In this document: positions 1 to 21,415 of the stretch, in pieces
Position numbering within the stretch: position 1 is the stretch's first letter
How the letters are laid out: every line of letters starts with the position of its first letter
NCBI GenBank assembly: GCA_028865235.1
Contig: CP114561.1
Coordinates: forward strand, 1,880,001 to 1,944,000
Origin: Candidatus Manganitrophus sp.
GTDB lineage: Bacteria > Nitrospirota > Nitrospiria > SBBL01 > Manganitrophaceae
Direction: 5' to 3'
Length of the DNA: 64,000 bases
Translations under genes and position numbers: made by a program
Notes under the pieces: model-generated
What the model saw: only the letters and a program-made list of their open reading frames with translations
What the model was told of the DNA's origin: nothing
Databases searched by the model: none

Positions 1-207
1 GCAATTCGGGTCAAGGTCATCATATAGCACAATGCGGCGCACGACACGCTCGCCGCCATTGTCGGTGCCGAGCAGGAAGGCACCGCTCTCGCGAACCCCT
101 CCGCCGCGCTCCCGCAACTTACGCAAGAGTTCATCCCATAGCGGAAGATCAATTGTCAGCCTAGATCGCGGGGCACTCGATGTAGTCCCGTGATTGAAGA
201 ATCTCAT
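1..207 (-). CDS. JAB/JAMM-family metalloprotease, N-terminal part (cut by window edge)
   Basis: Only the first 69 codons are in the window. The ATG at 207-205 lies inside the last codons of the E2-like gene, a 47-bp overlap typical of translational coupling. Residues 39-47 read RESGAFLLG, which matches the start of JAB/JAMM domains where the Glu (here E40) is the catalytic base. The zinc-binding HxH...D half would lie beyond position 1. Members of this family beside prokaryotic Ubl and E2 genes act as isopeptidases or as processors of the ubiquitin-like precursor. The assignment rests on one motif plus strong context, so it is good but not certain. Confidence 0.72.
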   Translation of the reverse strand, partial: MRFFNHGTTSSAPRSRLTIDLPLWDELLRKLRERGGGVRESGAFLLGTDNGGERVVRRIVLYDDLDPNC

Positions 208-622
208 GAACGATCCCCAGATACTGAGTGATTCCTTTTGCCGGGTTCCAGATCATCGACGGATACTCGTTGCGCCAATTATCGTGGCCCTCGATCGCAG
301 TACGATCACATGGCAAGTACAGTGCGATGCCTGACTTCCAGTTCGGGTTGAATACTGCCGTGATCCGGGCGCCGCCCTTGGGCCATAGAGAGAAGTCGAG
401 CGGTGCCTTCTTTTCGGGACACCACAGTCGCGCCGTGGGTGGATTCTGCGGATAGCCCGAGCAATCGAAGCGGAGGACGAACTCACGGTTATCCCGTGCC
501 GTAATGCCGATCTGTACGCCCGGCCACTCCACCGCCAGAAGTCGCCAACGCTTCCCCGCTTCGCCAGCGAGAAAGCGCCCTGACTCCATATCTGCCCTCA
601 ACTCCCTCTCGTCGGGTGCCAT
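161..622 (-). CDS. E2-like ubiquitin-conjugating enzyme (prokaryotic E2 family)
   Basis: The predicted protein has 153 residues from the ATG at 622-620, which overlaps the stop codon of the Ubl gene (TGATG). A longer open frame starts at 685 (174 codons), but the coupled start is more natural. Numbering from the longer frame, YPQNPP (78-83) matches the E2 motif before the active-site strand, and LYLPCDR (122-128) places the likely catalytic Cys at C126. A downstream HDNW (134-137) and a C-terminal amphipathic helix (about 151-165) also fit the E2 fold. It would carry the Ubl as a thioester between an E1 and its target. No HPN tripeptide is visible, as is common in bacterial E2 families. Confidence 0.8.
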   Translation of the reverse strand: MAPDERELRADMESGRFLAGEAGKRWRLLAVEWPGVQIGITARDNREFVLRFDCSGYPQNPPTARLWCPEKKAPLDFSLWPKGGARITAVFNPNWKSGIALYLPCDRTAIEGHDNWRNEYPSMIWNPAKGITQYLGIVHEILQSRDYIECPAI

Positions 623-1119
623 CACGCGGCTCCCTGGATGCGCGGGTTCGGGACGAGGTCGAACGAGATGGCGCAGGTTGAGCATGCTGCGAGCGTACCG
701 ATATGCACGTCAACGTCCGGTTGTTCGTGGGTCCCGGCAATCTGCAGAATCAGTTCGGCTGCATCTTCCTTCGAAATTCCGAGCTCCTTTGCGGCCGACC
801 TCTTCACTGCTCCGATCGTCCTGCCGGGGCCGAAGACATGCTCCACAACCCGCCCGGAGTAAACCACCCTGACACTCACGCGCCGACAACGATGAACGTG
901 CAGACGCACGCCGTGCTTGCCGGCGACCGACTCGATCGTTACCTCGTCGATGAGTGGCTCGTCCTGGTCCTCCAGAAACACGGCAGCCTCGCCATTCACC
1001 TGTAGGCCATGGGAAGCGCAGGCGTGCCTCACGTCGAGGGCGGTGCTCTGCGGCTCGAGTTGTAACCGTACGACGTCTTTAATCCCCTCGCCTTGCAGAA
1101 AGACATTTATTTTAGACAT
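622..1119 (-). CDS. Tandem ubiquitin-like (beta-grasp) protein
   Basis: The 165-residue product looks like two successive beta-grasp domains, about residues 3-76 and 80-156, each opening with a strand-turn-strand (INVFLQGEG...VRLQL; VSVRVVYSGR...EHVF) followed by a helix. The tail ends PRIQGAA. A Gly (G163) two residues from the end would be exposed if the last two Ala were removed, which suits processing by the neighbouring JAB protease. A good ribosome site (AAGGAG, about 6 nt upstream) precedes the ATG. It is the presumed modifier of the locus. It resembles two-domain bacterial Ubls of the DUF2604/multiubiquitin type; the exact family cannot be fixed by eye. Confidence 0.78.
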   Translation of the reverse strand: MSKINVFLQGEGIKDVVRLQLEPQSTALDVRHACASHGLQVNGEAAVFLEDQDEPLIDEVTIESVAGKHGVRLHVHRCRRVSVRVVYSGRVVEHVFGPGRTIGAVKRSAAKELGISKEDAAELILQIAGTHEQPDVDVHIGTLAACSTCAISFDLVPNPRIQGAA

Positions 1120-1141
1120 TTTTTGATCTCCTTATGATTGG

Positions 1142-1159
1142 GGCGGCGAAAGCGCCGCC
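1142..1159 (-). promoter_or_regulatory. Short stem-loop between helicase and Ubl genes
   Basis: A perfect 7-bp GC-only stem (GGCGGCG / CGCCGCC) closes a 4-nt loop in the 96-bp gap between the helicase stop and the Ubl start. No T-run follows, so it is not a classical terminator. It could stabilise or partly end the helicase message so that the Ubl-E2-JAB genes are expressed at another level. Confidence 0.4.
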
Positions 1160-1215
1160 TTCATACATATAATCGCTTGGAGATCGAAAAACCGGTAACC
1201 GTCGGCGGTGTCGAC

Positions 1216-4200
1216 TTATGGGAGCTGTACAGGTCCTTCCGGGAGGGATGGGCAATAAAAGAAGTGCGGACAGCGTGGGCAGCTGAACGCATCCGGTTGT
1301 GGAGGGAACAGTCCGGAGTGGATGCTGGCAGACGCAGCTCCAGCCTTTTCCATTCGGTTCTTCATTTTTTTCACGCTCGGCGCGATGCGCGTTCGGGTGT
1401 TCCCAGTCAGATGTACCGCCTCGACCTCATACCGCCCCTCCCCATAACGTTCTGCGGCGGCGGTATGATAGAGGGTATAGATCCATTCGTCCTCCTCGTC
1501 CTTGGACAGCTTCCCCGTGCGGATTCGGCGCAGCAGCATCGTGCCATCGGAGCGCTTAGCCACCTGGTCCGGATTGACCTCGACCTTGCCGTGGAGCAGA
1601 TCTACAGAGAAAGCCTCCACCTTGTGGATGTCGAGTCCAGCACACGCCGCCTCGAAGTTCACAATCGTTTGCTCCGCGATCCGCCGGTAGTCCGCTTCAT
1701 ACGCGTGGTCAAGCGGGCCCCGATTTTCCCATGAAGCCTCAAGGCGCTGCAGCAGCCATTTCCTGTCTCGGGCCTTGTCATGCTCACTCGCAGCGTTGAT
1801 GGTTTCATATACACAATTGTGTGCCTTGACGAAAGCCGTCTCGCGCTGTCGACCTGCCAATCCCAGGAGGTATGTATAAAGAAACCGTCGCGGACAGCTA
1901 TCGAAGCGACTCAGCTCGTCCGCCTCGATTACGCCTGTACCTGCCGCTACAGGCACGACCCACCTCTTTGCCGCGTCAGCTGGCATGGGTGACAATTGAA
2001 TATTTCGAACGACAGTGAGCGAAGGGACTACCTTTCCGATGAAGTCCGATGGCTTCGCCCTGATTCCGTAGTGACGCAAATGCGTTCGCGCGCGAGACAT
2101 CGCGACGAAATAGAGGCACTCCTCCTCTGCGGCATGGATAGTCCTCTGGTATTCCATTCCGCTGGCAGATCCGGCTTCCTCCACCATGCCGTCTGGCGGT
2201 GGGCAACGCACGCCACGATATTGGAGGGGGATATAGCCACGGGTCATTCCCGGAATGTGTACCGCTTCGAATTCCAAACCCTTGCTGCCGTGGATCGTCA
2301 ACATTCTGAGCGCGTCAGCATTGCGTGCGGCGCTCGGAATCTGCCTCAGGTCCCGCTCGTCGCCGAGCACTACAAGATGGCGGATGCGTTCTAGCAGTCG
2401 GGGGATCGGTGGCCCTTTCCCATGCGCATGCGGCTCGCGGACGAAATTCAGGAATTGCCAGATCGCAACACACTTCATCTGATCCCGTACATCCCTGCTC
2501 TTCACAAGCGGTTTCAGGAAGGTCGCGCGCTCAAAGAGGTACTTGCAGAGTATCTCCCACGGCGAGGAGCTCGGGCTGAATCCTTCCAGGTCCTTAGCAA
2601 GAGCCGAGAATGCAGCCCGCGCCTCCGCAGAGAGCCCTTCGATCTTATCAGCCACCCTTAGCGCATCCAATGCGTGGGTAAGCGTTTTTCTGGAATGGGT
2701 CAGAAGCAGCGACACGTCTGGCAGCGGCGCTCGGTATGGCTCTAACGTTGCAAGACGCACAAGCGGGCCCCCGGCAGGGTCGGCCACTAAAGACAAGAGT
2801 GAAAGCAAGTTTCGGATCTCATCGCGCTCGAAGAGGCTTCCGAGGTGTAGCACAGGAATGCCGCGTGCTTCAAGCGCAGCAGCAAATTCGTTCAGGCGTG
2901 AATTCGAGCGAAAGAGCATCGCCTGTTTGCGCAGGGGTACTCCTTTCTTCCGCAATTCCTCAACGTTCGCCACGGCGGCCGCCATCTCCGACTCGTCATC
3001 GGCGACTTGCCATAGATCGGGCTGAATCCCTCCTTTTCCTCTGTGAGCCTTGAGCTTCAGCGGGAGCATTCCAGAGGAAGCAGTCATAGATTGGGAGAAG
3101 CCGCAATAAGCGTCGACGATCTCCTGCGTAGAACGATAGTTCGTGCCGAGGCTAAGCCGCCTTGAGCGGGGGAAGTCAGTATCGAACCTCGCCATGTTGG
3201 CCGAAGACGCGCCGCGGAAACGGTAGATTGATTGCCGCGCGTCGCCTACGACCCACAACCGCTCGCCGTCTCCGGCCAAAGCCTTCAGCAGTCTTGCACT
3301 GGCGCGATTCACGTCCTGGTATTCGTCAACAAGTACGTGCCGGTACTTCATCCGAAAGACATCACGGATGGACGCATCTTCCTCGAGGAGAAGAGTCGGC
3401 TTCATAATAAGATCGCCGAAGTCGAGCAGCTTGTGTTCCGCAAGTAACTTCTCGTAGCGCTCGTAGACCGCCGCAACCTCCAGCGCCTTTTCGGCCATCT
3501 CCCGAGACTCGTCGTCTCGCGCCGCATCAAGCATGCGCTGCCCGAGCCGCTTGTAATCGGCAGGCGACATCAGTTCGTCCTTCGCACGCGAGATGGCCGC
3601 AAGGATATCCTTAAGATTAATAAGGGGGTCCCAGAGGTTCTTGTAATGGTTCAGCGGCAGTAACGGAAGAACCTCTTCAAGGAGGGCGACCGCATCGCTC
3701 TTGTCGATCACGGACACATCCGGCGGGAAACCGAGCATCGGGTGGTCGAAGTACTTGCGAACAAACTCCAAGCCGAATGCATGGAACGTTCCGGTCCATA
3801 TGTTCGCCGCCGCTTCCGGCAAAACGGTGGCCACGCGTTCAGAAAGCTCCAGCGCCGCCTTGTTGGAGAACGTCAGCGCGACGATCGACCCTGGGTCAGC
3901 GTTCTGCTGAATGAGATGCACGATTCGAGCAACCAGGGTGCGCGTCTTACCTGTGCCAGGACCAGCTTCCAACAGCAGCGGGGCGCCCGAGAAAGTGGCT
4001 GCCTCCACTTGAAAGGAGTCGAGCGGTGGGTCTTCTTTCGCCTTTTCCGTTTCAGGCTCTGCATAGCCTGGGATAAACAGCGCATCAATAAGCTGTTGAC
4101 GTGCGACGGCGAGCGGAAGGCCAAAATCCTTCGCGATGGTGTCCGGTATTTTGGCGCTGTCGAGATAGAGGGCGCGGGCTTGCGGCTGCGGCAGTAGGAG

Positions 4201-4617
4201 TTCGCGCGCGAAGACATTCGCTTGCAGTTCGCGGCGCTCCCTCGGCCCGTAGCCTGCTACCCGGTCATTACCAACCGGCGAAGCTTCACTCGGAGCCGAG
4301 GCGTCCACGTCGTCGCGAGAGCAATTCGTAGCACTCTCCGCCATGTGGACATGGAAGTGCCCCAACTCGTGAGCAAGGAGAGCAGCTAGATCTTCATCCG
4401 GGAGATTATTCACATGATAGATTGCTCCATCGCCGCGCGCAAGTACTGCAAGCGCCCCGCCGAGGAGCGCATCGGATGGATCGAGCGTGCAAAGTTCGAG
4501 ATCCACCTTGTTAGCGAGCATTCTGACAAGGTCGATCGCCCTGGGCGTGGCCGAAAACTCCCTCATCTCCGCGTTCTTCTGTCGGGCGAGTTCTCTTATC
4601 TTGACGAACGCATCCAT
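1216..4617 (-). CDS. ImmA/IrrE metallopeptidase - UvrD helicase - RecB-like nuclease fusion
   Basis: The protein has 1133 residues. The N-terminal zinc peptidase domain shows HELGH at 83-87 and the ImmA/IrrE pattern RELQANVFARELLLP at 129-143. A superfamily 1 helicase follows, with Walker A GPGTGKT (219-225), DEYQD (431-435), GDARQSIYRFRGA (458-470), NYRST, TIHGSKGLEFE and a final EEECLYFVAMSRAR. The C-terminus looks like the Cys-rich RecB/Cas4 nuclease fold: one Cys in DSCPRRFLY, then C1113, C1116 and C1122, the usual four iron-sulfur ligands. Where the family has GRIDR...DyKTG, this protein reads HGKVEV...RIRTGK, so the nuclease metal site looks degraded. It starts 3 nt after the upstream gene. 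It may sense damage or foreign DNA and cleave the adjacent regulator. Confidence 0.93.
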   Translation of the reverse strand: MDAFVKIRELARQKNAEMREFSATPRAIDLVRMLANKVDLELCTLDPSDALLGGALAVLARGDGAIYHVNNLPDEDLAALLAHELGHFHVHMAESATNCSRDDVDASAPSEASPVGNDRVAGYGPRERRELQANVFARELLLPQPQARALYLDSAKIPDTIAKDFGLPLAVARQQLIDALFIPGYAEPETEKAKEDPPLDSFQVEAATFSGAPLLLEAGPGTGKTRTLVARIVHLIQQNADPGSIVALTFSNKAALELSERVATVLPEAAANIWTGTFHAFGLEFVRKYFDHPMLGFPPDVSVIDKSDAVALLEEVLPLLPLNHYKNLWDPLINLKDILAAISRAKDELMSPADYKRLGQRMLDAARDDESREMAEKALEVAAVYERYEKLLAEHKLLDFGDLIMKPTLLLEEDASIRDVFRMKYRHVLVDEYQDVNRASARLLKALAGDGERLWVVGDARQSIYRFRGASSANMARFDTDFPRSRRLSLGTNYRSTQEIVDAYCGFSQSMTASSGMLPLKLKAHRGKGGIQPDLWQVADDESEMAAAVANVEELRKKGVPLRKQAMLFRSNSRLNEFAAALEARGIPVLHLGSLFERDEIRNLLSLLSLVADPAGGPLVRLATLEPYRAPLPDVSLLLTHSRKTLTHALDALRVADKIEGLSAEARAAFSALAKDLEGFSPSSSPWEILCKYLFERATFLKPLVKSRDVRDQMKCVAIWQFLNFVREPHAHGKGPPIPRLLERIRHLVVLGDERDLRQIPSAARNADALRMLTIHGSKGLEFEAVHIPGMTRGYIPLQYRGVRCPPPDGMVEEAGSASGMEYQRTIHAAEEECLYFVAMSRARTHLRHYGIRAKPSDFIGKVVPSLTVVRNIQLSPMPADAAKRWVVPVAAGTGVIEADELSRFDSCPRRFLYTYLLGLAGRQRETAFVKAHNCVYETINAASEHDKARDRKWLLQRLEASWENRGPLDHAYEADYRRIAEQTIVNFEAACAGLDIHKVEAFSVDLLHGKVEVNPDQVAKRSDGTMLLRRIRTGKLSKDEEDEWIYTLYHTAAAERYGEGRYEVEAVHLTGNTRTRIAPSVKKMKNRMEKAGAASASIHSGLFPPQPDAFSCPRCPHFFYCPSLPEGPVQLP

Positions 4618-4620
4618 CGT

Positions 4621-5262
4621 TCAGCTCTTGAGCAGCGCCTGCTTCTGTCTGTCGTCGAGTGAAGAACCGCGCACCGCGTGCTCGAACGTTTCCTTCCTCG
4701 CTTCGACCGATGGCTTGCCCTCGGCTTTGAAGTCCGGCTGCGCGTGCAGCGCTGGGGGAAGCCGCAGGTAGACAACAAATTCGTCCACTGTGTACCCAAG
4801 TATTTCGGCGAATCGCTCCAGGAACCCACGCGGCGCAGTGTCGGGATCAATCAACCTGTTCTGGAACTTCGCCAGCAAGGGCGTGTCAATTCCGACTCTG
4901 TCCCTGATTTCGCGCTTGCGCGCGACGGGCAAGCCCTCGAAGGGGCTGCACTCCATGCCAGGCGGCTCGTGTGCCGACTTCAAGGATGCTGGTTTAACAG
5001 CCACACGGTCATAAAATCGGCTGATTGCTCGCGAAACCAGAGAACTCGAAGCTGGCTGCTCCACATCCTGTCCTGGAGTGGTCGCAGCAAGAGCGTCGTC
5101 GATCAACCATTGCACGGCATAATCAGTCAGTTCGCGTGCGTATTGGGGATACTTCCTGCAATACGTTTCGAGGACGGCAGGGTTCGGTGCGTTAGCCGCC
5201 TCAACGCAAAAGTCGAGTAGTATCGAGTCCAGGTTCTCTTGCTTCCTCTCGTTTGCCTTCAT
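4621..5262 (-). CDS. XRE-like regulator, candidate ImmA-type substrate
   Basis: The start is the ATG at 5262, preceded by GAGAGGGGAGA at proper spacing; an upstream in-frame start (5301) lacks this. The product is 213 residues. An N-terminal helical segment (LETYCRKYPQYARELTDY) resembles a short motif common before regulators and kinases in complex bacteria. Towards the C-terminus a stretch beginning RDRVGIDTPLLAKFQNRLID and ending ERFAEILG resembles an XRE helix-turn-helix. It overlaps the sigma gene by 62 bp and is followed at once by a gene with an ImmA domain. ImmA peptidases commonly cleave an XRE partner, so a repressor role is inferred. Family not firmly recognised. Confidence 0.6.
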   Translation of the reverse strand: MKANERKQENLDSILLDFCVEAANAPNPAVLETYCRKYPQYARELTDYAVQWLIDDALAATTPGQDVEQPASSSLVSRAISRFYDRVAVKPASLKSAHEPPGMECSPFEGLPVARKREIRDRVGIDTPLLAKFQNRLIDPDTAPRGFLERFAEILGYTVDEFVVYLRLPPALHAQPDFKAEGKPSVEARKETFEHAVRGSSLDDRQKQALLKS

Positions 5263-6049
5263 TTGTCTCCCCTCTCTGCTTGGCGAAAACCTTCTCAGCA
5301 CTGCGGAGCCAGTTTCGAATAGTCTTCTCGCTCTTGCCGAAGTGTTTCACCAGTGTGTATTCTTTGGGATCTTTCGACTCAATCGGCACGTCCCAGCCAT
5401 AATAGAGTAGAAAAGCTTTCAGGGAAGTCGGGGCAAGATTTGCCTCTCTGATCGCGGCAGCGATCCTGTCCCGGGCCTCGGTTAGGGCATAAGCGGCCTC
5501 AGGTGATTCGGAGCTAATCGGCTCCTTCTTAATCGGCATGATGTCCGCCTCGTCCTCCGCGAGGTCCGCCATTGCGTCTCCAACTTGTTCCGTACCCGCA
5601 TCCTTTCTCTCCTGTTTGCGGCAGGCATCGATCCTGTTGTGCCTTAGCCAGTCGTTGAAGTTGACCTCAGCATAGTCCGCCTTATCACTCGCATCGGTAA
5701 TCTCGTCGATCATCCGATCGATGACCTCGTGGCAGATCTCTTCGCACTGCAGCTCGTCGAAAACGCCGCTGATGTGGTGTTTCAGCGTGATCTCCGACCT
5801 GTTCACGAGGATTGAGATAAGCCCGTCGACACCGGGTTTCTGGAGATTGCCCTTGCGCGCTTCGCGCCGCAATAGGTAGACGAGAGCCTCGGAAGACACC
5901 GCAACCTCGTCTCGCTGCTCCGCTTCCCTTGCGCGCGCCAGTACGTCCTGTAGTTTGAGCTCCTCGAGCTGTTCTAACTCCTCTTCCACGTTCCGGCGCC
6001 GCTGATACAGCGATCCATCGGGGCGCTTCTTTCGAAGTGGTTGCACCAT
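5201..6049 (-). CDS. Sigma-70-family (ECF-like) factor
   Basis: The 282-residue product has a basic, coiled N-terminus (1-55). A region-2-like segment follows (about 60-155) with FNDWLRHNRIDACRKQER, the pattern ECF factors use for promoter melting. A region-4-like segment (about 195-260) ends in a helix-turn-helix, KHFGKSEKTIRNWLRSAEK. An acidic linker separates them. The ATG has GAGGT 8 nt upstream. It is first in the island operon and likely directs transcription of it. Similarity is by motif only; a phage-type or other HTH activator is the alternative. Confidence 0.65.
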   Translation of the reverse strand: MVQPLRKKRPDGSLYQRRRNVEEELEQLEELKLQDVLARAREAEQRDEVAVSSEALVYLLRREARKGNLQKPGVDGLISILVNRSEITLKHHISGVFDELQCEEICHEVIDRMIDEITDASDKADYAEVNFNDWLRHNRIDACRKQERKDAGTEQVGDAMADLAEDEADIMPIKKEPISSESPEAAYALTEARDRIAAAIREANLAPTSLKAFLLYYGWDVPIESKDPKEYTLVKHFGKSEKTIRNWLRSAEKVFAKQRGETNEGKREEAREPGLDTTRLLR

Positions 6050-6096
6050 GCGGTTTACCTCATATATTCGCTACGCTATCGTCTGTACATCACCTC

Positions 6097-6118
6097 CACT
6101 TAACATCCACTTAACATC
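6097..6118. repeat. Tandem 11-bp repeat upstream of the sigma gene
   Basis: The word CACTTAACATC occurs twice back to back and is followed by a partial third start (CAC). It lies about 48 bp upstream of the sigma-factor start codon and reads GATGTTAAGTG towards the gene. The spacing of one helical turn suits an operator or activator site for the island promoter. Confidence 0.45.
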
Positions 6119-6558
6119 CACGCTCCCATGAGCACCTCCGCTTATTTAATCGCGGTGACCTGATTTTTCCGGTAATTTCCAAAAAAACAATGCAAATTTA
6201 AACGCTTATAACCTCTATCTCGAACCTCCTTCTTGCGTTTCGCTGCTATGAGACTGGGAACAGCTAACTTCCACGATCGGATCAGCATCGGCAACGTAGC
6301 CGTAATCAAGACCACCGAATTAGGTCGATCGCGGCCTTCGGATAAGGGCAGTTATCTACTATCCGTTTCGGGTCATAAGCGGACACTGCTTACCGTTGCG
6401 ATTTGCGGGTCAGTATAGTCCGTCACTTACCACTTGAAATCTACAACGAAAAGGAAAGATTCAAATCACTCGACTTCAGGAAGAAAGAATTGACCTTACA
6501 ATAAGTGAAAAACAACGTTATGATCTCTACAGCTACGCCTTACCCCAAGGCGAAATAA
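6119..6558. other. Gene-free stretch between the island and priA
   Basis: I see no supported gene here. A 61-codon open frame on the plus strand (6233-6418) has no ribosome site or recognisable content. The part around 6360-6420 includes the word GGGTCATAAGCGGACA, which reminds me of dispersed intergenic repeats near mobile DNA in proteobacteria, but only one copy is in the window. The composition is more AT-rich than the flanks. It may mark the island edge. Confidence 0.4.
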
Positions 6559-9014
6559 TCAAACAAAATTCTGAGGATCGACATTCACCTCCAGCCGGAC
6601 CCCCTTCCGCTCCATCCGCTTCCAGGAATTCAGTCCTTCCTTGAGAACGGCGGCGATTTTCTTTTGATCTTTTCCTTTGAGGAGAATCTGATAACGGTAT
6701 TCCCCCCGCAGGCGCATCAGCGGCGCCGGAGCCGGACCGAGGAGGGTTACCCCCCTCTCGGTCTCCCCTTTTTTCGGGGGAGGGAGCGCTTTCTCGATTT
6801 CTTTTAGAAGGGCCGCCGCCCGATCGACCACCCGTTTTTCTTCCGAATGGCTGAACAAGAGAAGGGTAAACCGGCAGAAGGGGGGATAACCCATCTCCTT
6901 TCGAAAGGCGATCTCCTGCTCATAGAACCCGAGATAATCGTGCGTGGTCGCCGCCGCGATCGACTCATGATTCGGCTGAAAGGTTTGAATGAGGACCTCG
7001 CCGGGCCGATCTCCACGGCCCGCCCGTCCGGCAACCTGCGCCAGAAGCTGAAAGGTCCGCTCTGATGAGCGGAAATCGGGGAAGTGAAGCGAGAGATCGG
7101 CGCAAAGAACGCCGACCAGGGTGACATCGGGAAAGTCGTGCCCTTTGGTGATCATCTGGGTGCCGATGAGGATGTCGATCTCCCGCTGCGCCATCGCCGT
7201 CAGGATCTTGTGATGGGACTCTTTTTTCTGCGTGGTGTCCCGGTCCATCCGGGCCACCCGCGCCGCCGGAAAGCGTTGTCGGATCTCCTCTTCGACCTGC
7301 TCGGTTCCGATCCCAAGATGGACCAACCGGACCCCCTGGCATTGAGAGCAGGCGGTCGGCGGGGCAAGCTGAAACCCGCAATAATGACAGACCAACTTTT
7401 GCAATTTCTTGTGGAAGGTCAAGGAGACGCTGCAGCGGATGCAATGGGGGAGATAGCCGCAGTCGGGACAGAGAAGCGAGGGGGAGAAGCCGCGCCGATT
7501 CAAAAAGAGGAGCGTCTGCTCTTGGTTCTCCAAGCGTTTCTCCATCGCCGAAAGAAGCGATCGGGTCAAAAACGGCCGGACCCAATCCTCTTTCTTCCGA
7601 AGATCGACCACGGCAACGGCCGGCAAGGGACGGGCGTCAATCCGGCCCGGGAGCGCAAGCAGGCGATATTTTCCGGTCTCGCTATTGTAGAACGACTCGA
7701 AGGAGGGGGTCGCCGAGCCCAATACCACGACGGCGTCGGACTGCTTTCCCCGAACCAACGCGGTATCGCGCGCATGATAGCGGACGCCGTCATCCTGCTT
7801 GTACGACGAATCGTGCTCCTCATCGACAATAATCACCCCGACCGCTTCGAAGGGAGCGAAGATCGCCGACCGGACGCCGATCGCGATCTGGGCTTTTCCC
7901 TCCCGGATACGGCGCCACTCATCATAACGCTCTCCCGGCGAGAGGCCGCTGTGGAAGAGGGCCACCGCCTCCCCGAACCGGCTCTGAAACCGCGCGACCA
8001 ATTGGGCGGTTAAAGCAATCTCCGGCACAAGAACAATCGCCCCCCTTTTTGCGCAAGGGCCTTTTCGATGACGCGAAGGTAGACCTCGGTCTTGCCGCTC
8101 CCGGTCACCCCATGCAGCAAAAAGGGGGTGAAGGTTTTCCCCTCGACGGCGGAGACGATCTGATCCACCGCGGCTTGCTGGGCAGAATTCAAGAGAATCG
8201 ATGGCTGCAGCGGGAACCCCGAAGGACGCATCGGCGTTCGCGGGGCCTCTTCCTCCGCCTGATCGATCAGCCCTTTGTCGAGCAAGCGTTTCAGCGAGGC
8301 ACGAAGCGGCGCTTCAAACGCGCCGACCGGCATCGCCCCCCCGGCGGTCAGAAGCACCTGAAGGACACTGGCCTGCTGCGGGGCGCGTTTTTGTAACGAG
8401 GTGATCAGGGAGGCAACTTCGGCCGGATCGGATTTTAAGAAAACAAGACGCCGGAATTTTTTCCGGACGGCGGGGCGATCGACCTCCCACGCTTCCGTGA
8501 TCCATCCTTTTTTCTTTAATGTCGAGAGGGACCCGGCCAATTTCTCTCCCCCCGTCCGTTTGCGAAGCTGGGGCTCCGTCAGTGCTCCTCCCTCCTTGAG
8601 CGCCGCAATAAGCCGCTCCTGGAGCGCCGTTTTCTTTTCTCCCCCGGTTTTCTCCACCGCTTCCGTGAGATGGAAACGCCTGCGGACCACCGCCTGGCTT
8701 CCCTGCGGGAAGGCCCCTTTGATCACCCTCCCCAAGGGGGCAAAGTAATAATCGGAAATCCAGTGAAGGAGTTGAAAGAGAGAAGATGGAATCGAGACAT
8801 CCCCGTCCAATAAGGCGAGGACCGGTTTGGTTTCTGGAACCTCCGGACGATCGACGCGCCGAACATAATAAGCCATGCGCCAGCCGCGCCCGAACGGCAC
8901 CAACAGCCGGGTCCCCGGCGCCAACGGCGCCGCGGCCCAGGTTGGTGGGAGATGGTAATGAAAAGTTCCATCCGCTTCGGCAAGCGCGACTTCGACAAAC
9001 TGGGGGGCACTCAT
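6559..9014 (-). CDS. priA: Primosomal protein N' (replication restart helicase), frameshifted
   Basis: PriA loads the replicative helicase at stalled forks. The N-terminal DNA-binding part starts MSAPQFVEVAL; Walker A is HGVTGSGKTEVYLR, and the second half gives DEEHD, GSATPS, and the zinc-binding cysteines (CPDCGYLPHCIRCS, CHYCG, CSQC). The two halves are in different frames: near 8042-8052 the minus strand reads AAAAAGGGGGGCGATTG, and adding one G gives the expected AQKGGAIVLVPEIALT. The single-base loss in a G run is probably a sequencing error. I prefer the ATG at 9014 over a TTG at 9038. No clear ribosome site is visible. Confidence 0.93.
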
Positions 9015-15881: not shown

Positions 15882-16621
15882 ATCGACAAGAGCTTGAAAA
15901 AAAGAATATCGCCGCCCTTCGCTCTCTTGCCAAGACACATTCGATTCGCCTTCGCCCTTCTATGCGTAAGAGCGAGATCGTTTCCGTTTTGCTGGAATCG
16001 CTTTCTCCGGCGGAAAAAAGGGAGCCCGCCCCCTTGACGGAGAAAGAAGCGGTCACGGCAAGCAGGATGACCGAACATGCCGGAGAGGGAGAAGCCGAAG
16101 AGGAAAGGGCTGGCGTCGGCATTGCAATTTATCCGGAGATTCCAATGGAATATGGCGTCAATCAAGTCGTCGCCCTGGTCCGCGACCCCTGGTGGATCTA
16201 CAGCTATTGGGAGGTGACCCACGAAGGAATCGGAGAGACCCATCGGAAACTGGCCGATCCGGAAAGCCGCCTCGCCCTGCGGGTTTACGATCTTTCGGAG
16301 CGGAGCGATTTGACCCATTTTTGGGACATCGACGTCGACCACCGGATCGGAAACTGGTATGTCGATGTCGGCAAACCCGACCGGAATTTTTTGATCGATA
16401 TCGGCATGAAGTCCCGTTCCGGCGCATTCGCGACGATCGCCCGATCAAACAGCGCCCACACCCCGCCGGCCGGCCCTTCCGACCGGTTCGATGAAGAGTG
16501 GTGGTCGCCGGAGGGAACGCTCGCCTCCGACGAGGGAAGAAGGTTGCCGCTGGAGCCGTTCGAACGGGAAAGAGAGGCGATCTCAAGCCTCTTCTCTTTG
16601 GGACTGTTTCGGAAAGGCTAA
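15878..16621 (+). CDS. DUF4912 protein with N-terminal SAP/Rho-N-like domain
   Basis: The 247-residue protein opens with a helical segment (1-45) like the Rho N-terminal or SAP fold. A DUF4912 core lies at about 75-185 with [18 protein letters not shown] and a carbohydrate-binding-module-like beta region (ALRVYDLSE...NWYVDVG). DUF4912 proteins are often beside GH57 enzymes, as here, suggesting a role in glycogen or another glucan. The biochemical role is unknown. Confidence 0.75.
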
Positions 16622-16674
16622 AACATGGAAGGGGGCGGAAGCACCTCCCGCCTACCGGCATTTAGGAGGTTCCC

Positions 16675-18260
16675 ATGGAAAAAGGATTTCTCTCACTCAT
16701 TCTCCATTCACACCTTCCCTTTGTGCGCCACCCCGAATATCCGGAGTTCCTCGAAGAGGATTGGCTCTTTGAGGCCATTACCGAAACGTATATTCCGTTC
16801 ATCACGATCTTTGAAAAACTATTGAACGATCGGGTTCCCTTTCGGATCACCCTCTCGATCACGCCGACCCTGGCCGCCATGCTCAGCGATCCGCTTCTGC
16901 AGCGGCGTTATTTGGAACACATCGAGCGGCTGATCGAGCTTGCGGAGAAGGAAGTGCATCGGACGCGGAATCAGCCGGAGTTTCATTCGACCGCTCGGAT
17001 GTATCTCGATCGGTTCGGGAAGCGCGGACCGTCTTCAACGATCGATACCGGCGGAATCTTCTCACCGCCTTTCGCGCCTTCCAAGAAGAAGGCTCCGTCG
17101 AGCTGATGACCTCGGCGGCGACGCACGGATTTCTTCCGCTCATGGCGGTCAATCCGAATGCCGTGCGGGCGCAGGTCGAGATCGGCGCGCGGGAATATGA
17201 GCGCCACTTCGGCCGGCGTCCCCGCGGGATCTGGCTTCCCGAGTGCGGCTATTATCCCGGATTGGAAGAACACCTGGCCGCCTCCGGGCTTCAATATTTC
17301 ATCGTCGATTCCCATGGGCTTCTCCACGCCGTTCCCCGTCCGAAATATGCCCTCTACGCCCCGATCTACACCCGCGCGAAGGTCGCGGCGTTCGGACGGG
17401 ATGTCGAATCGTCGAAGCAGGTCTGGAGCGCGGAGGAGGGTTACCCAGGCGATTTCGTTTACCGCGATTTCTATCGCGACATCGGCTTTGACCTCGATCT
17501 CGACTACGTCCGGCCCTACATCCACGACGGCGGCATCCGTATTTCAACCGGAATCAAATACCACCGGATTACCGGGAAAACCGACCACAAGGAGCCGTAT
17601 CACCGGGGATGGGCGATCGATCGGGCGGCGGAGCACGCGGGAAATTTCATGTTCAACCGGGAACGCCAGATCGCGCACCTCCACGACGCCATGGGGCGAA
17701 AGCCAGTGATCGTCGCCCCCTACGACGCCGAGCTCTTCGGGCATTGGTGGTTTGAAGGACCGGAGTGGATCGACTTTTTCGTTCGGAAAAGCGCCTACGA
17801 TCAGAACATTTTCCGCCTCACCACACCGGCCGAGTATCTTCGCGAGAATCCGAGGAATCAGGTGGCGACCCCGCCGATGTGCAGTTGGGGATGGAAGGGA
17901 TACAACGAGGTCTGGCTGGAGGGGAGCAATGATTGGATTTATCGCCACCTTCATCAAGCGGCCGATCGGATGGTCTCGCTGGCCCGGCGCTTCCCCCAAG
18001 CGGACGGCCTTCAGAAACGAGCGCTGCGCCAAGCCGCCCGCGAGCTCCTCTTGGCGCAGGCTTCGGACTGGGCTTTTATCATGAAGACCGGAACTTCCAT
18101 TCCGTATGCCGTCAAGCGAACCTACGATCACCTCTCCCGCTTTACCCGGCTCTATGAAGAGATTTCATCGGAGCGGATTCATGAAATTGCGCTCAAAGAG
18201 ATCGAAGAAAAAGACAACCTCTTCCCGGAGATCGACTATCGGCTTTATGCAGGCGCTTAG
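16675..18260 (+). CDS. GH57-family glucan enzyme (DUF1957 type), frameshifted
   Basis: Start MEKGFLSLILHSHLPFVRH, with AGGAGG upstream. The HSHLPF motif is the GH57 N-terminal signature, and the later WLPECGYYPG and APYDAELFGHWWFEG segments carry the candidate nucleophile Glu and acid/base Asp. The C-terminal DUF1957 helical part is complete. The family acts as glycogen-branching enzyme or amylase. Near 17018-17024 a G run (GGG, needs GGGG) breaks the frame; with one base added, the sequence runs RFGEARTVFNDRYRRN as expected. Length after repair is about 528 residues, normal. Confidence 0.88.
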
Positions 18261-18338
18261 GTGTTCCCCCTGCTTGCGAAGAGAATATCGTCCGGTTAAG
18301 ATAGGGGTATTAGAGTGGATCGCAGATCTGGAGATTTC

Positions 18339-18896
18339 ATGGAACAAGCGATAGAAACGCTCAAGGGGAAATTGCTGATTGCAATGCCGATGCTCAACGA
18401 TCCCAACTTCCGGCAGTCGGTGATCCTGATGTGCGAGCATGGACCGGAAGGGGCGCTGGGATTGATCATCAATCGCCCGACGGAAGTGGCGGTCTCGACG
18501 TTGATCGAAGATTTTCCCAAGCTGGCCGGCGGCGAATGGGTTTACGCCGGCGGCCCCGTGGCGAAGAACGGAATGTTGATTCTCTGCCGGGGCGATGCAA
18601 CGCTCGAAAATCACAGCGTCCTGGAGGACGTCTACCTGGCCAAGGATTTGGACGAGCTAAAAACGCCGGGAGCGCTCGGCCCCGACGGAGAGATCCGTTG
18701 TTGCTTGGGATATGCCGGTTGGGCGCCCGGCCAATTGGAAGGGGAGATGTCCTCGGGCGCATGGCGGACCCTCCCGGCCGATGCGGCGCTGATCTTTGAC
18801 GCCGACCCGACCCTCATTTGGCCGCAAATGATGCGTCGGTTCGGTCCCGAATGGGCCTTTTATGCAACGATGCCGTTCGATCCAAACCTGAACTGA
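18339..18896 (+). CDS. yqgE: YqgE/AlgH family protein
   Basis: The 185-residue product starts at the ATG after GGAG; a GTG 24 bp upstream is also open. Family hallmarks are LLIAMPMLNDPNFRQSVILM, GALGLIINRP, the GGPV turn and GYAGWAPGQLEGE. The molecular role of YqgE/AlgH is not settled. It is an isolated gene between GH57 and the response regulator. Confidence 0.92.
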   Translation: MEQAIETLKGKLLIAMPMLNDPNFRQSVILMCEHGPEGALGLIINRPTEVAVSTLIEDFPKLAGGEWVYAGGPVAKNGMLILCRGDATLENHSVLEDVYLAKDLDELKTPGALGPDGEIRCCLGYAGWAPGQLEGEMSSGAWRTLPADAALIFDADPTLIWPQMMRRFGPEWAFYATMPFDPNLN

Positions 18897-19112
18897 TCCC
18901 ACCTTACTTCTTTTCGCTACCCCATCATACCCTCTTGTAGAACCCTGTCACCGGCTCCACACCCGCGGAACAAAAGTGTGCAGATTTTCTTTAACTTTTG
19001 GAGGAAATCCAGACCGATCTCGCTTCTTTACAAAAGATCGAGACGGTCTGGGATTTGCTCTAAGAAGGGATAGGAACCGGAACGATTGAACACTTTTTCC
19101 AGGAGGAACGAG
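18897..19112. other. Intergenic stretch
   Basis: No gene or clear promoter was seen. AGGAGGAACGAG directly before 19113 is the ribosome site of the next gene. Confidence 0.4.
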
Positions 19113-20251
19113 ATGGCAAAACGTCCTCAGATTTTGATCATTGAAGATCAGCTCGGCCCAGAAAATCACTCGAAATGATCCTTTCCCCTTACTTCGATAT
19201 TCTCACCGTCGATTCGGGAGAAAAGGGATTGGCCCAGCTGAAGGAAAAACCGGTCGATGTGGTGACGCTCGACCTCCGGCTTCCCAACCTGCAAGGAATC
19301 GATGTCCTTCGCCAAATTAAACAGATGCACGGAGACATCGAGGTCATCGTCATCACCGGTTACGGGGAGTTCAAAACAGTGCTCGATGCGCTCCATTTAG
19401 GCGCCTCCTCCTATCTCCTGAAGCCCTTTAACATGGGGGACGTTTTGACCGCCGTGAATCGGGCCGCCGGAAAGAAGCGGCAGATGGATCAATTAAAAGA
19501 GTTCCTGATCCAGATCGGAGGATTGATCGGCGCCGAGAAAGAACTCTCCCAAGGGATCAAGCTGCTCGAACAAGATCGCTCCCTTCTCGAGGGGGTCAAG
19601 AAGATGTTCGAAAAAACGGAGCAAGAAATCGAGGAGGAGCGGCGGGTCAACCATTTTGACTTCATCCGGGCCCTCATCGACACCGTTGAAAAAAGAGATC
19701 CGTACGCCTACGGCCATTCGAGCCGGGTCAACTATTATTCCTACCTGATCGCGCAACGCCTCGGACTGACCGATTCGGAGAAAGAAGAGCTGCAGATCGG
19801 CGCCTACATGCACGACATCGGCAAGCTCGGCATCGACCCGCAGGTGGTCCAGAAAAAGGGAGAGTATACCTCCGAGGAGATGGAGGCGATCAAAAGACAT
19901 CCCGAAATCGGCGTGAATCTCGTCGCCCCGCTGAACCTTTCCCCGAACGTTCTCGCCTTGATCCGGCATCACCACGAGTATTACATCGGGAAAGGATACC
20001 CCGACGGCATCGGCGGAGAGGACATTCCCCTCCTGGCGCGGATCGTGGCCGTGGCCGACGCATTCGATGCGATGGTTTCCGATTACCCTTATGAATACAG
20101 GAAGGTTCTCTCTCTGGAAGAGGCGACGGCGGAGCTCAATCACTGCTCGGGAATTCAGTTCGATCCGAAAGTCGTGAAGGCGCTGATCGAAATGATCGAG
20201 GAGGAGCACGACCGGATCCTCCTCAAGTCGGCCCTCTTTGCCGATCTTTAA
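19113..20251 (+). CDS. Response regulator with HD-GYP phosphodiesterase output, frameshifted
   Basis: It begins MAKRPQILIIEDQLGP after AGGAGG. The frame then stops early; adding one C in the C3 run near 19155 gives GPRKSLEMILSPYFDILTV and joins the receiver domain, whose phospho-acceptor is in VVTLDLRLP. The HD-GYP domain follows, with HSSRV, YMHDIGKLGI, RHHHEYYIGKGYPDG and a metal-binding DAFDAM. HD-GYP enzymes hydrolyse cyclic di-GMP. No histidine kinase is adjacent, so its sensor is elsewhere. Confidence 0.9.
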
Positions 20252-20254
20252 ATT

Positions 20255-21415
20255 TCATCGCCCGGCAAATTGCGAACCGACTTCCCAAGCGTGGTCCTCT
20301 ACCCGGAGAATTCCCGGACGGATCGCGCGAATGCGATGGTTTGCGGAATCGGCGATGTAGATAGTCCCCGCCGGGTCGATCCCGATTCCCGTCGGAAAAT
20401 CGAACCCGGCTGAAAGCCCCATCCCATCGATATCACCCGGCTGACCGCTCCCCGCCAAAGTGCTCACCCGACCCTGAGGGAGGAGGATCTTCCGGATGCG
20501 ATGGTTCTTGCTGTCCGAGACAATCAGGTTTCCCTCGATATCGACACTCACGCCGGTCGGCCAGTAAAACTGCGCCTCCTCTCGAAGCCCGTCTCGATCT
20601 CCCGGCTCCCCCGATCCGGCCACCGTGATAACGTTGCCGTCCGAGCCGATCCGCCGGATCGTGTGCGATCCTGCGTCGGCGACATAAACATTCCCGCCGT
20701 TGTCGGCCGCCACCGTCATCGGTTGATTGAATTTTGAAAAGTAGGCGAGGCTGTCGTGATATCCTTGCTCGCCGGTCCCGGCGACGATCATGACGATCCC
20801 CGTCGGGGTGACCCGTTTGATTTGATGCGCCCCCCGATCGGCTACATAGAGGCTTCCGTCCGGGGCCACCGCGACGCCGGTTGGATAGACAAACTCCGCC
20901 TCCTCGGCCGCTCCCTCTTTATTGCCCTGCCTTCCGCTCCCGGCGACTGTTGAAACGACCCCATCCGGCGTGATTTTTCTGATCCGGAAATTGTCGGCGT
21001 CGGCCACATAGAGGTTGTCGTCTCCATCCATCGCGAGGGTATCGGGACCGTGAAAGAGCGCCTCTCTTCCCTTCCCATCGGCGAAGCCGGGAACCCCCTG
21101 TCCCGCAAAAGTCGTCACCCAACCGAAGCGGTCGATCTTCCGGATGACATGGTTGTCATAATCGGCGACGAATCGGTCGCCCCGCCGGTTGACCGCAATC
21201 CCGGTCGGCCAGGCGAATCGCGCCAGCGACGCCGGCCCGTCTTGAAGGCCGCGCTGACCCGACCCCGCCACAATCGAAACGATTTTTTCGGGGCTTCCCT
21301 GAAATGTCTTCTGACCCGGTATCGAGGCGGGAATCGCCCCTTCGGGGAAAGGGAAATAAGCGCATGCCGAGAAAAGAAAGAAAAGAGATACGATTAAAAA
21401 GAGGGGTCGCTTCAT
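20255..21415 (-). CDS. NHL-repeat beta-propeller lipoprotein
   Basis: The ATG at 21415 follows GAGGAG. A lipoprotein signal (about 1-17) ends in the lipobox FSAC. The rest, about 370 residues, is a run of NHL repeats in which TVAGSG...G..DG and PTGIAV.P.G..YVAD..NH.IR recur about six times, forming a six-bladed propeller. It likely binds protein or ligand at the outer membrane. It is convergent with the HD-GYP gene, with 3 bp between. Confidence 0.88.
   Translation of the reverse strand: MKRPLFLIVSLFFLFSACAYFPFPEGAIPASIPGQKTFQGSPEKIVSIVAGSGQRGLQDGPASLARFAWPTGIAVNRRGDRFVADYDNHVIRKIDRFGWVTTFAGQGVPGFADGKGREALFHGPDTLAMDGDDNLYVADADNFRIRKITPDGVVSTVAGSGRQGNKEGAAEEAEFVYPTGVAVAPDGSLYVADRGAHQIKRVTPTGIVMIVAGTGEQGYHDSLAYFSKFNQPMTVAADNGGNVYVADAGSHTIRRIGSDGNVITVAGSGEPGDRDGLREEAQFYWPTGVSVDIEGNLIVSDSKNHRIRKILLPQGRVSTLAGSGQPGDIDGMGLSAGFDFPTGIGIDPAGTIYIADSANHRIRAIRPGILRVEDHAWEVGSQFAGR

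Follow-up and report, generated by a model that had tools for sequence, protein, structure and literature searches.

The DNA considered here is a stretch of 64,000 nucleotides (nt) from Candidatus Manganitrophus sp. (contig CP114561.1, positions 1880001-1944000, hereafter the window), at whose left edge lies a minus-strand operon joining genes for conjugation of a ubiquitin-like protein (Ubl) to a sigma factor, a small regulator and a large fusion protein. A sequence-only reading of the window had described six consecutive genes as one operon, all six of which are confirmed in the list of open reading frames (ORFs). The left flank, read as locus L002 (window position = L002 position - 12000), adds a seventh, and the operon comprises, in order, the genes for the sigma factor, the regulator and the fusion, followed by bilA, bilB, bilC and bilD. 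Its features are as follows.

6147..6175, minus strand: promoter-like motif, copy 1, TTACCGG-N16-CGATTA, an exact genome match with its end some 98 nt upstream of the sigma start codon
5201..6049, minus strand: sigma-70-like factor of extracytoplasmic function (ECF) type, 282 amino acids (aa), the first gene of the operon
4621..5262, minus strand: small regulator (XRE-like in the earlier reading), likely start ATG 5262, with a helical N-terminal part, a C-terminal helix-turn-helix (HTH)-like module and a K(A/S)..P tail
1216..4617, minus strand: fusion of an ImmA/IrrE peptidase (M78), a UvrD/PcrA superfamily 1 (SF1) helicase and a PD-(D/E)XK fold, 1133 aa, assigned by Pfam
1170..1198, minus strand: promoter-like motif, copy 2, an exact genome match in the 96-bp gap from the fusion gene to bilA
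622..1119, minus strand: BilA, tandem Ubl (ISG15-like); PADLOC BilA 1.6e-51
161..685, minus strand: BilB, E2-like; PADLOC BilB 2e-59, Pfam DUF7665 2.6e-65
1..207, minus strand: BilC (JAB/JAMM peptidase), only the gene start being inside the window and the gene running on to window -308; PADLOC 2e-64
window -1715 to -315 (L002 10285-11685): BilD (E1), 466 aa, directly behind the bilC gene; PADLOC 1e-163

The first three genes (sigma factor, regulator and ImmA-UvrD fusion) are called the trio below. Base composition gives no indication that the operon is of foreign origin.

The tagging half of the operon belongs to a known system. PADLOC models match BilD, BilC, BilB and BilA at E values of 1e-163, 2e-64, 2e-59 and 2e-51, so all four Bil families stand in one operon, and these matches, together with the E1 found to the left of position 1, where it had been proposed to look for one, identify the Ubl, E2, JAB and E1 proteins as BilA-D. 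The Ubl-E2-JAB set of the sequence-only reading is thus real and complete with its E1, and absence of an E1 from the operon is ruled out; what falls away is the novelty of this half, which is Bil. Bil protects bacteria against phage. Its sequence hallmarks are well kept: the JAMM pattern occurs in 59/59 BilC and GxGxxG in 60/60 BilD, the window included, and the column of BilD Cys384 holds Cys in 59 of 60 aligned rows. The window BilB carries Cys126, at the E2 catalytic cysteine column, which is Cys in 48 of 60 aligned BilB and Leu or Trp in nine; this cysteine is therefore not universal, and some BilB may be inactive or use another cysteine. BilA ends in IQG-AA in the window and, in most relatives, in V/I, N/E/Q and G, to which a short extension may be added. 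Homology of BilA to AgrD was rejected, the Pfam match being below threshold. Elsewhere, L125, from a genome of the same class (G065), holds genes remotely like BilA-D (5573-8337, E 1e-6 to 1e-20), with no trio matches in the 11 kb read.

In the fusion, all three domains of the metallopeptidase-helicase-nuclease-fold protein that had been proposed are recognised by Pfam (M78 at 7e-9, UvrD at 2e-69 and 2e-25, PDDEXK_1 at 7e-8), with the qualification that the nuclease site is degenerate in the aligned relatives. The ImmA part alone, used as query, found 205 relatives; among the 120 of these that were listed, 116 longer than 1000 aa were aligned full-length. Residues were counted over 94 aligned rows, that is, the window and 93 relatives from fetched loci. 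The H, E and H of HEXXH are kept in 93, 92 and 93 rows, the Walker A lysine and DE box in all 94, and four conserved cysteines in 91 or 92; a simple pattern finds HEXXH in 95 of 98 fusions, and the scored pieces of L019, L046 and L089 are without it. The D...(D/E)xK of an active PD-(D/E)XK nuclease (AddB/Cas4-type) has been lost, as the D position is R in 61 rows and acidic in two, and the K position is R in 68 and K in 11. The nuclease fold looks catalytically dead, and the fusion may best be regarded as a working peptidase and helicase in which that fold has been retained for binding. The UvrD core is shared with Gabija GajB, whose models it matches to 1e-65, whereas the N-terminal M78 domain sets the fusion apart from GajB and from PcrA and Rep alike; moreover, it scores far under the family cut-offs of PcrA and Rep. 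Eight viral contigs match the helicase only distantly, and the other operon genes are not with them.

The first gene encodes a sigma-70-like factor with the fold of sigma region 2. Sigma70_r4_2 is matched by 37 of 60 family members at E 0.01, with PDB profile matches in addition, and is not matched by the window protein itself in the Pfam scan. With ECF sigma factors it has in common regions 2 and 4, the overlap with the next gene and an upstream promoter-like motif of its own, a motif known from sequence alone. The private sigma factor of the earlier reading is thus strongly indicated, together with its putative two-part promoter. Unlike in known ECF sigma/anti-sigma pairs, the partner here is an anti-sigma factor by inference, and its release would depend on a DNA-gated peptidase.

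This partner, the regulator, has no Pfam match, hence no Pfam HTH, and Foldseek gave no significant match (best E 1.6, to DdrO), such lists excluding nothing. Its C-terminal module of 108 columns is common to the regulator of sigma-less relatives (hhalign probability 98.7, E 2.8e-16) and weakly resembles in structure the HTH domains of DdrO and CapH (7t5u); in one sigma-less locus, L065, a faint ribbon-helix-helix match (E 0.06) precedes the common module in a longer regulator. The regulator gene overlaps the sigma gene in the window and in most loci (of 61, 29 show an overlap of exactly 4 nt), which makes an anti-sigma role at least as plausible as DNA binding. Accordingly, the former label of XRE-like regulator holds for the HTH-like module and becomes one of two options for the protein as a whole, which may be an anti-sigma factor or a repressor and, in either case, the predicted substrate of the peptidase.

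The trio recurs far beyond this genus. Contigs were scanned with eight ImmA domains (two ImmA patterns), the best 80 of 87 loci were kept, and their genes were assigned by simple ORF calls and profile hidden Markov models built from the fetched loci; because the loci were picked by ImmA pattern, fractions are no census, and because they are related, counts are not independent events. A complete trio in one gene order was found in 57 of the 80. At least 2 kb could be read after the fusion in 50 of these, and BilA-D is complete in 44, the other six holding a Bil fragment (L046), Multi_ubiq and an E1 (L082) or a small protein (L013, L015, L018, L077); the remaining seven end too soon after the fusion, two of them already showing Bil genes. 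The order is constant over Pseudomonadota, Acidobacteriota, Chloroflexota, Myxococcota and the genus itself, in which the operon is patchy (2/6 genomes searched) and one genome, G188, has all seven genes. The sequence-only reading would have been contradicted by the want of a nearby E1, or by a Ubl-E2-JAB set never found beside the fusion in other genomes; neither is the case.

Another 22 of the 80 loci (L045, L056, L058, L060, L065-L071, L074-L076, L078, L080, L081, L084, L085, L087, L088, L090) have regulator and fusion without a sigma gene and without a recognised Ubl gene, and L034 has only a piece of the fusion. That the 22 are hidden Ubl loci was rejected, as profile scans gave no Ubl match. 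In 17 of them, by ORF calls, a divergent gene of 329-382 aa adjoins the longer regulator; the two that were scanned match TauD. On a quick tree of 98 fusions, with long branches flagged, the Multi_ubiq label changes at least three times and the sigma-less label three times, which indicates that cargo has been exchanged. The small cargo protein mentioned above, of about 100-110 aa, is found in four Acidobacteriota trio loci (L015 13213-13500, L018 13844-14131, L077 13758-14087, L013 9095-9337), behind the common motif in three and a weak motif in L013; that of L077 has no PADLOC match.

The strongest single result is the cis motif. This asymmetric, -35/-10-like motif, TT(T/A)CCGG-N16-CGAT(T/C)A, stands once ahead of the sigma gene and once more in the interval from the fusion to the cargo. 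When spaced word pairs were counted without supervision, CCGG-N16-CGAT emerged in 24 of 73 sigma-upstream regions and 29 of 66 fusion-cargo gaps, the numbers expected from shuffled sequence being 0.5 and 0.2. At a 1% shuffle threshold, a model trained on the gaps finds the sigma-upstream site in 44/73 regions and a model trained on the upstream regions finds the gap site in 52/66, and among the training sites 49 of 60 from gaps and 48 of 70 from upstream regions have a spacing of 16 from CCGG to CGAT. At a threshold of 18, a combined model places 42 sites upstream and 47 in the gap across 72 trio loci, with 37 more in the 2.65 million strand-bases elsewhere; 69 loci are readable at both places, with sites at both in 35, in the gap only in 14, upstream only in two and at neither in 18. 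Three clades with no or weak sites have motif variants of their own, which change together at both places. The two copies of a locus agree in 94% of core letters, a figure inflated by the model-based choice of sites, and in 33% of spacer letters (34 loci), against 28% between loci; so low a spacer agreement argues against a recent duplication.

On the scale of whole genomes the motif is rare. The 4.55-Mb genome of the window has three exact matches to TT(A/T)CCGG-N15-17-CGATTA, two of them at the expected places; the third, antisense inside a large gene that we take to be PilY1-like, is ascribed to chance. Six further genomes, five picked before the motif was known together with G188, have 3 to 9 matches each to TTTCCGG-N15-17-CGAT(C/T)A, including both places at every locus, and the backward motif, run as a control, has one match in all six together; in G188 the gap has two sites and the sigma gene is preceded by one. 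In the sigma-less loci, the matching places are empty in 21 of 22 at threshold 18, the exception being a site in L081 that scores 21.9, is poor in its right half and falls within a called divergent gene, some 170 nt ahead of the regulator. Judged by this distribution, the motif goes with the sigma gene.

A motif-like match that recurs within the coding sequence of the sigma factor probably reflects conserved codons. Apart from the two usual places, trio loci hold 11 rows that score above 20: those of L018 and L021 belong to the gap and have been shifted by a broken fusion or by distance, those of L011, L012 and L072 are antisense in coding sequence, and the remaining six precede genes on the same strand. 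In L039, such copies stand before a caspase-domain gene and a PD-(D/E)XK/UvrD pair (6686-8251 and 16609-20570), the caspase ORF as called beginning ahead of its site, so that a later true start would be needed. L042 has one before a PD-(D/E)XK gene (16562-19282) and L079 before a gene of like size and place, and L025 has one before a phosphoesterase/AAA pair (3568-8392), as has L026 before genes of like size and place. A wider regulon is possible on the strength of these few sites.

Plasmids carry the trio before a second Ubl system. Fusion matches at 1e-60 comprised 93 plasmid records, 40 of the 93 being listed, from which 13 loci were picked by hand; all 13 have Ubl genes nearby, L107 and L108 having been known beforehand to carry BilD. 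Multi_ubiq stands directly behind the trio in nine (in L109 with the sigma gene in two pieces); L105 has a divergent Multi_ubiq and no sigma gene found by profile, L101 only a Multi_ubiq fragment behind insertion sequence (IS) elements, and the last two have Bil. This second system, which we take to be Bub-like, consists of Multi_ubiq, a ThiF E1 and DUF6527, the E1 of L099 having DUF6791. Against models built before their inclusion, the trios of L098-L100 scored 7e-45 to 4e-53 (sigma), 3e-20 to 3e-27 (regulator) and 1171-1207 bits (fusion). The gap site exceeds 18 in eight of the ten plasmid Multi_ubiq loci (L099 reaches 11.7 and L106 17.9), and no sigma-upstream site passes 18 in any of the ten; in L082, the Multi_ubiq locus from a genome, the motif is present at both places. 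The trio is therefore not exclusive to Bil: the joining of trio and Bil-type genes proposed from the sequence is a real co-occurrence and extends to Multi_ubiq operons. Behind the trio of L109 (10980-15408) lies a third arrangement, of Multi_ubiq, a separate E2, ThiF, a gene annotated as phosphotransferase and DUF6527.

BilD matches comprised 36 plasmid records, and 15 plasmid Bil loci were read, 13 fetched as such and two via the fusion. Seven have the fusion (the sigma match being weak in L093 and the sigma gene split by an IS element in L113). Among the eight others, L092, from a Cupriavidus plasmid, has sigma gene, regulator and both motif copies, with a minus-strand gene of unknown type (6215-7102) in place of the fusion; L111 retains only a scrap of the fusion; in L095, where BilD alone was recognised, IS66 genes lie upstream, no controller is annotated and no motif site passes 15. 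The other five (L091, L097, L114, L115, L116) have an HTH protein and an M78 peptidase, separate or fused, the pair of L091 matching HTH_3 and M78 and the HTH of L115 being known by annotation; in one locus, separate HTH and ImmA genes stand at the position of the trio. These pairs suggest that the trio occupies the slot of the known CapH/CapP controllers. No motif site precedes the Bil genes in the trio-less or degraded loci L091, L097, L111, L114, L115 and L116. Beside Bil in L114 (4589-6872) and L115 (4437-6742) there are divergent HTH, ImmA and exonuclease genes, the last with RNase_T and Exonuc_X-T_C matches in L114 and by annotation only in L115, possibly another controller.

Bil is described as four genes in PMC11354881, and the present operon has all four proteins in the order A-B-C-D, with the JAMM and E1 motifs; it differs in being led by the trio with its repeated promoter-like motif. 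Controllers of similar logic are in print: according to PMC13373217, CapW or CapH+CapP are found in 219 of 544 Bub operons and CapK+CapS in five Bil operons, these Cap controllers act through repressors, and 'uvrD' is used three times, always for E. coli strains. Like the trio, they place an HTH-type partner and a peptidase ahead of immune operons, Ubl ones included. The trio is nonetheless not a CapH+CapP pair, that is, a stand-alone M78 peptidase beside a short Cro/C1-type HTH protein: its peptidase forms one protein with an SF1 helicase and a nuclease fold that looks dead, its regulator has no Pfam HTH, and it has in addition a sigma factor with its own promoter pair. In PprI (IrrE) of Deinococcus, a metallopeptidase activated by single-stranded DNA, as CapP also is, cuts the HTH regulator DdrO in its C-terminal domain (PMC10904395, as far as available), and in that source the pair comes without sigma factor or helicase fusion; the likeness of the present regulators to DdrO is weak. 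In nine plasmid loci the trio precedes Multi_ubiq/polyUbl operons (type 6e of Iyer 2006), whose Ubl differs from BilA, and in the part of that paper available (PMC1779556) the words helicase, sigma factor and HTH do not occur. A literature search found no publication on the trio, which may nevertheless be described in Gong 2025, Hor 2024, Millman 2022, Chambers 2024 or Ye 2026. The earlier statement that no described system joins both halves has to be narrowed, since ImmA peptidases and HTH repressors with bacterial Ubl operons are already in print (PMC13373217); it may still hold for the sigma factor and the helicase fusion. The new parts are the sigma factor, its promoter pair and the helicase gate, and the known relatives are CapH/CapP and PprI/DdrO.

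The trio order across phyla, the motif at both places and the trio before two Ubl systems are established at the level of sequence. The common motif before the trio and before the tagging genes suggests that the sigma factor turns tagging on, and the known conjugation system of this locus is likely governed by a new controller, based on a sigma factor and gated by a helicase. Put in full, a complete BilABCD stands behind a conserved trio that, in our judgement, probably acts as a DNA-triggered sigma switch. The regulator would hold the sigma factor inactive as an anti-sigma, or else repress its promoters. The helicase part, together with the inactive nuclease fold, would load on unwound or single-stranded DNA arising from damage or phage replication, and loading would activate the ImmA domain, which would cleave the C-terminal module of the regulator; once free, the sigma factor would raise its own trio and the Ubl operon. 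BilD and BilB would conjugate BilA to targets, and BilC would trim or remove it, as described for Bil.

An alternative that overlaps this one, and that we hold to be rather unlikely, makes the regulator a DNA-binding repressor of the sigma-dependent promoters, destroyed by ImmA as CapH is by CapP, with the sigma factor as a constitutive partner. The weak matches of the C-terminal module to CapH and DdrO, the faint ribbon-helix-helix match in L065 and the presence of CapH+CapP or CapW before other Ubl operons all speak for it. However, the sequence around the motif shows no second conserved block of operator size (outside the motif the mean information amounts to 0.16-0.24 bit, with mild conservation 36-45 nt past the motif start), and the overlap of regulator and sigma genes in most loci points the other way. 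It is improbable that the fusion is itself a defence effector like Gabija GajB, co-inherited with Bil and merely controlled by its ImmA part. Such an effector would fit the GajB-like helicase core and the 22 sigma-less loci that hold the fusion without a recognised Ubl gene, but its nuclease site is degenerate, GajA is matched by none of the other six operon proteins (the PADLOC scan having covered these and not the flanking genes), and the second motif lies after the fusion gene, at the cargo. The chance that the motif is a site of some other regulator or duplicated DNA, and not the promoter of the trio's sigma factor, seems to us slight: its role is read from its letters, and 37 similar sites occur elsewhere in trio loci, yet the spacer is not conserved between copies, the spacing is mostly 16, the motif is scarce elsewhere in genomes and missing at these places in nearly all sigma-less loci, and its variants change together by clade. 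That Bil and unrelated neighbours are held together only by shared transfer on mobile elements can hardly be right, for all the patchiness in the genus and the frequent location on plasmids, given one order over four phyla and the genus itself and a second Ubl system in the same slot.

If the DNA-triggered sigma switch is correct, it bears on the silencing and induction of costly immune operons. A dedicated sigma factor would add a type of controller that acts by directing polymerase, and the gate proposed for it would link bacterial ubiquitin-like tagging to DNA sensing; with its motif in hand, the regulon can be looked for directly in any genome. On the broadest reading, for which we see the arguments as evenly balanced, bacteria would possess immune sigma factors, each private to a local antiviral regulon that it runs once a helicase-gated protease has set it free; behind the promoter stand two Ubl systems, joined in a few loci by a caspase gene, a phosphoesterase/AAA pair and a nuclease-helicase pair.

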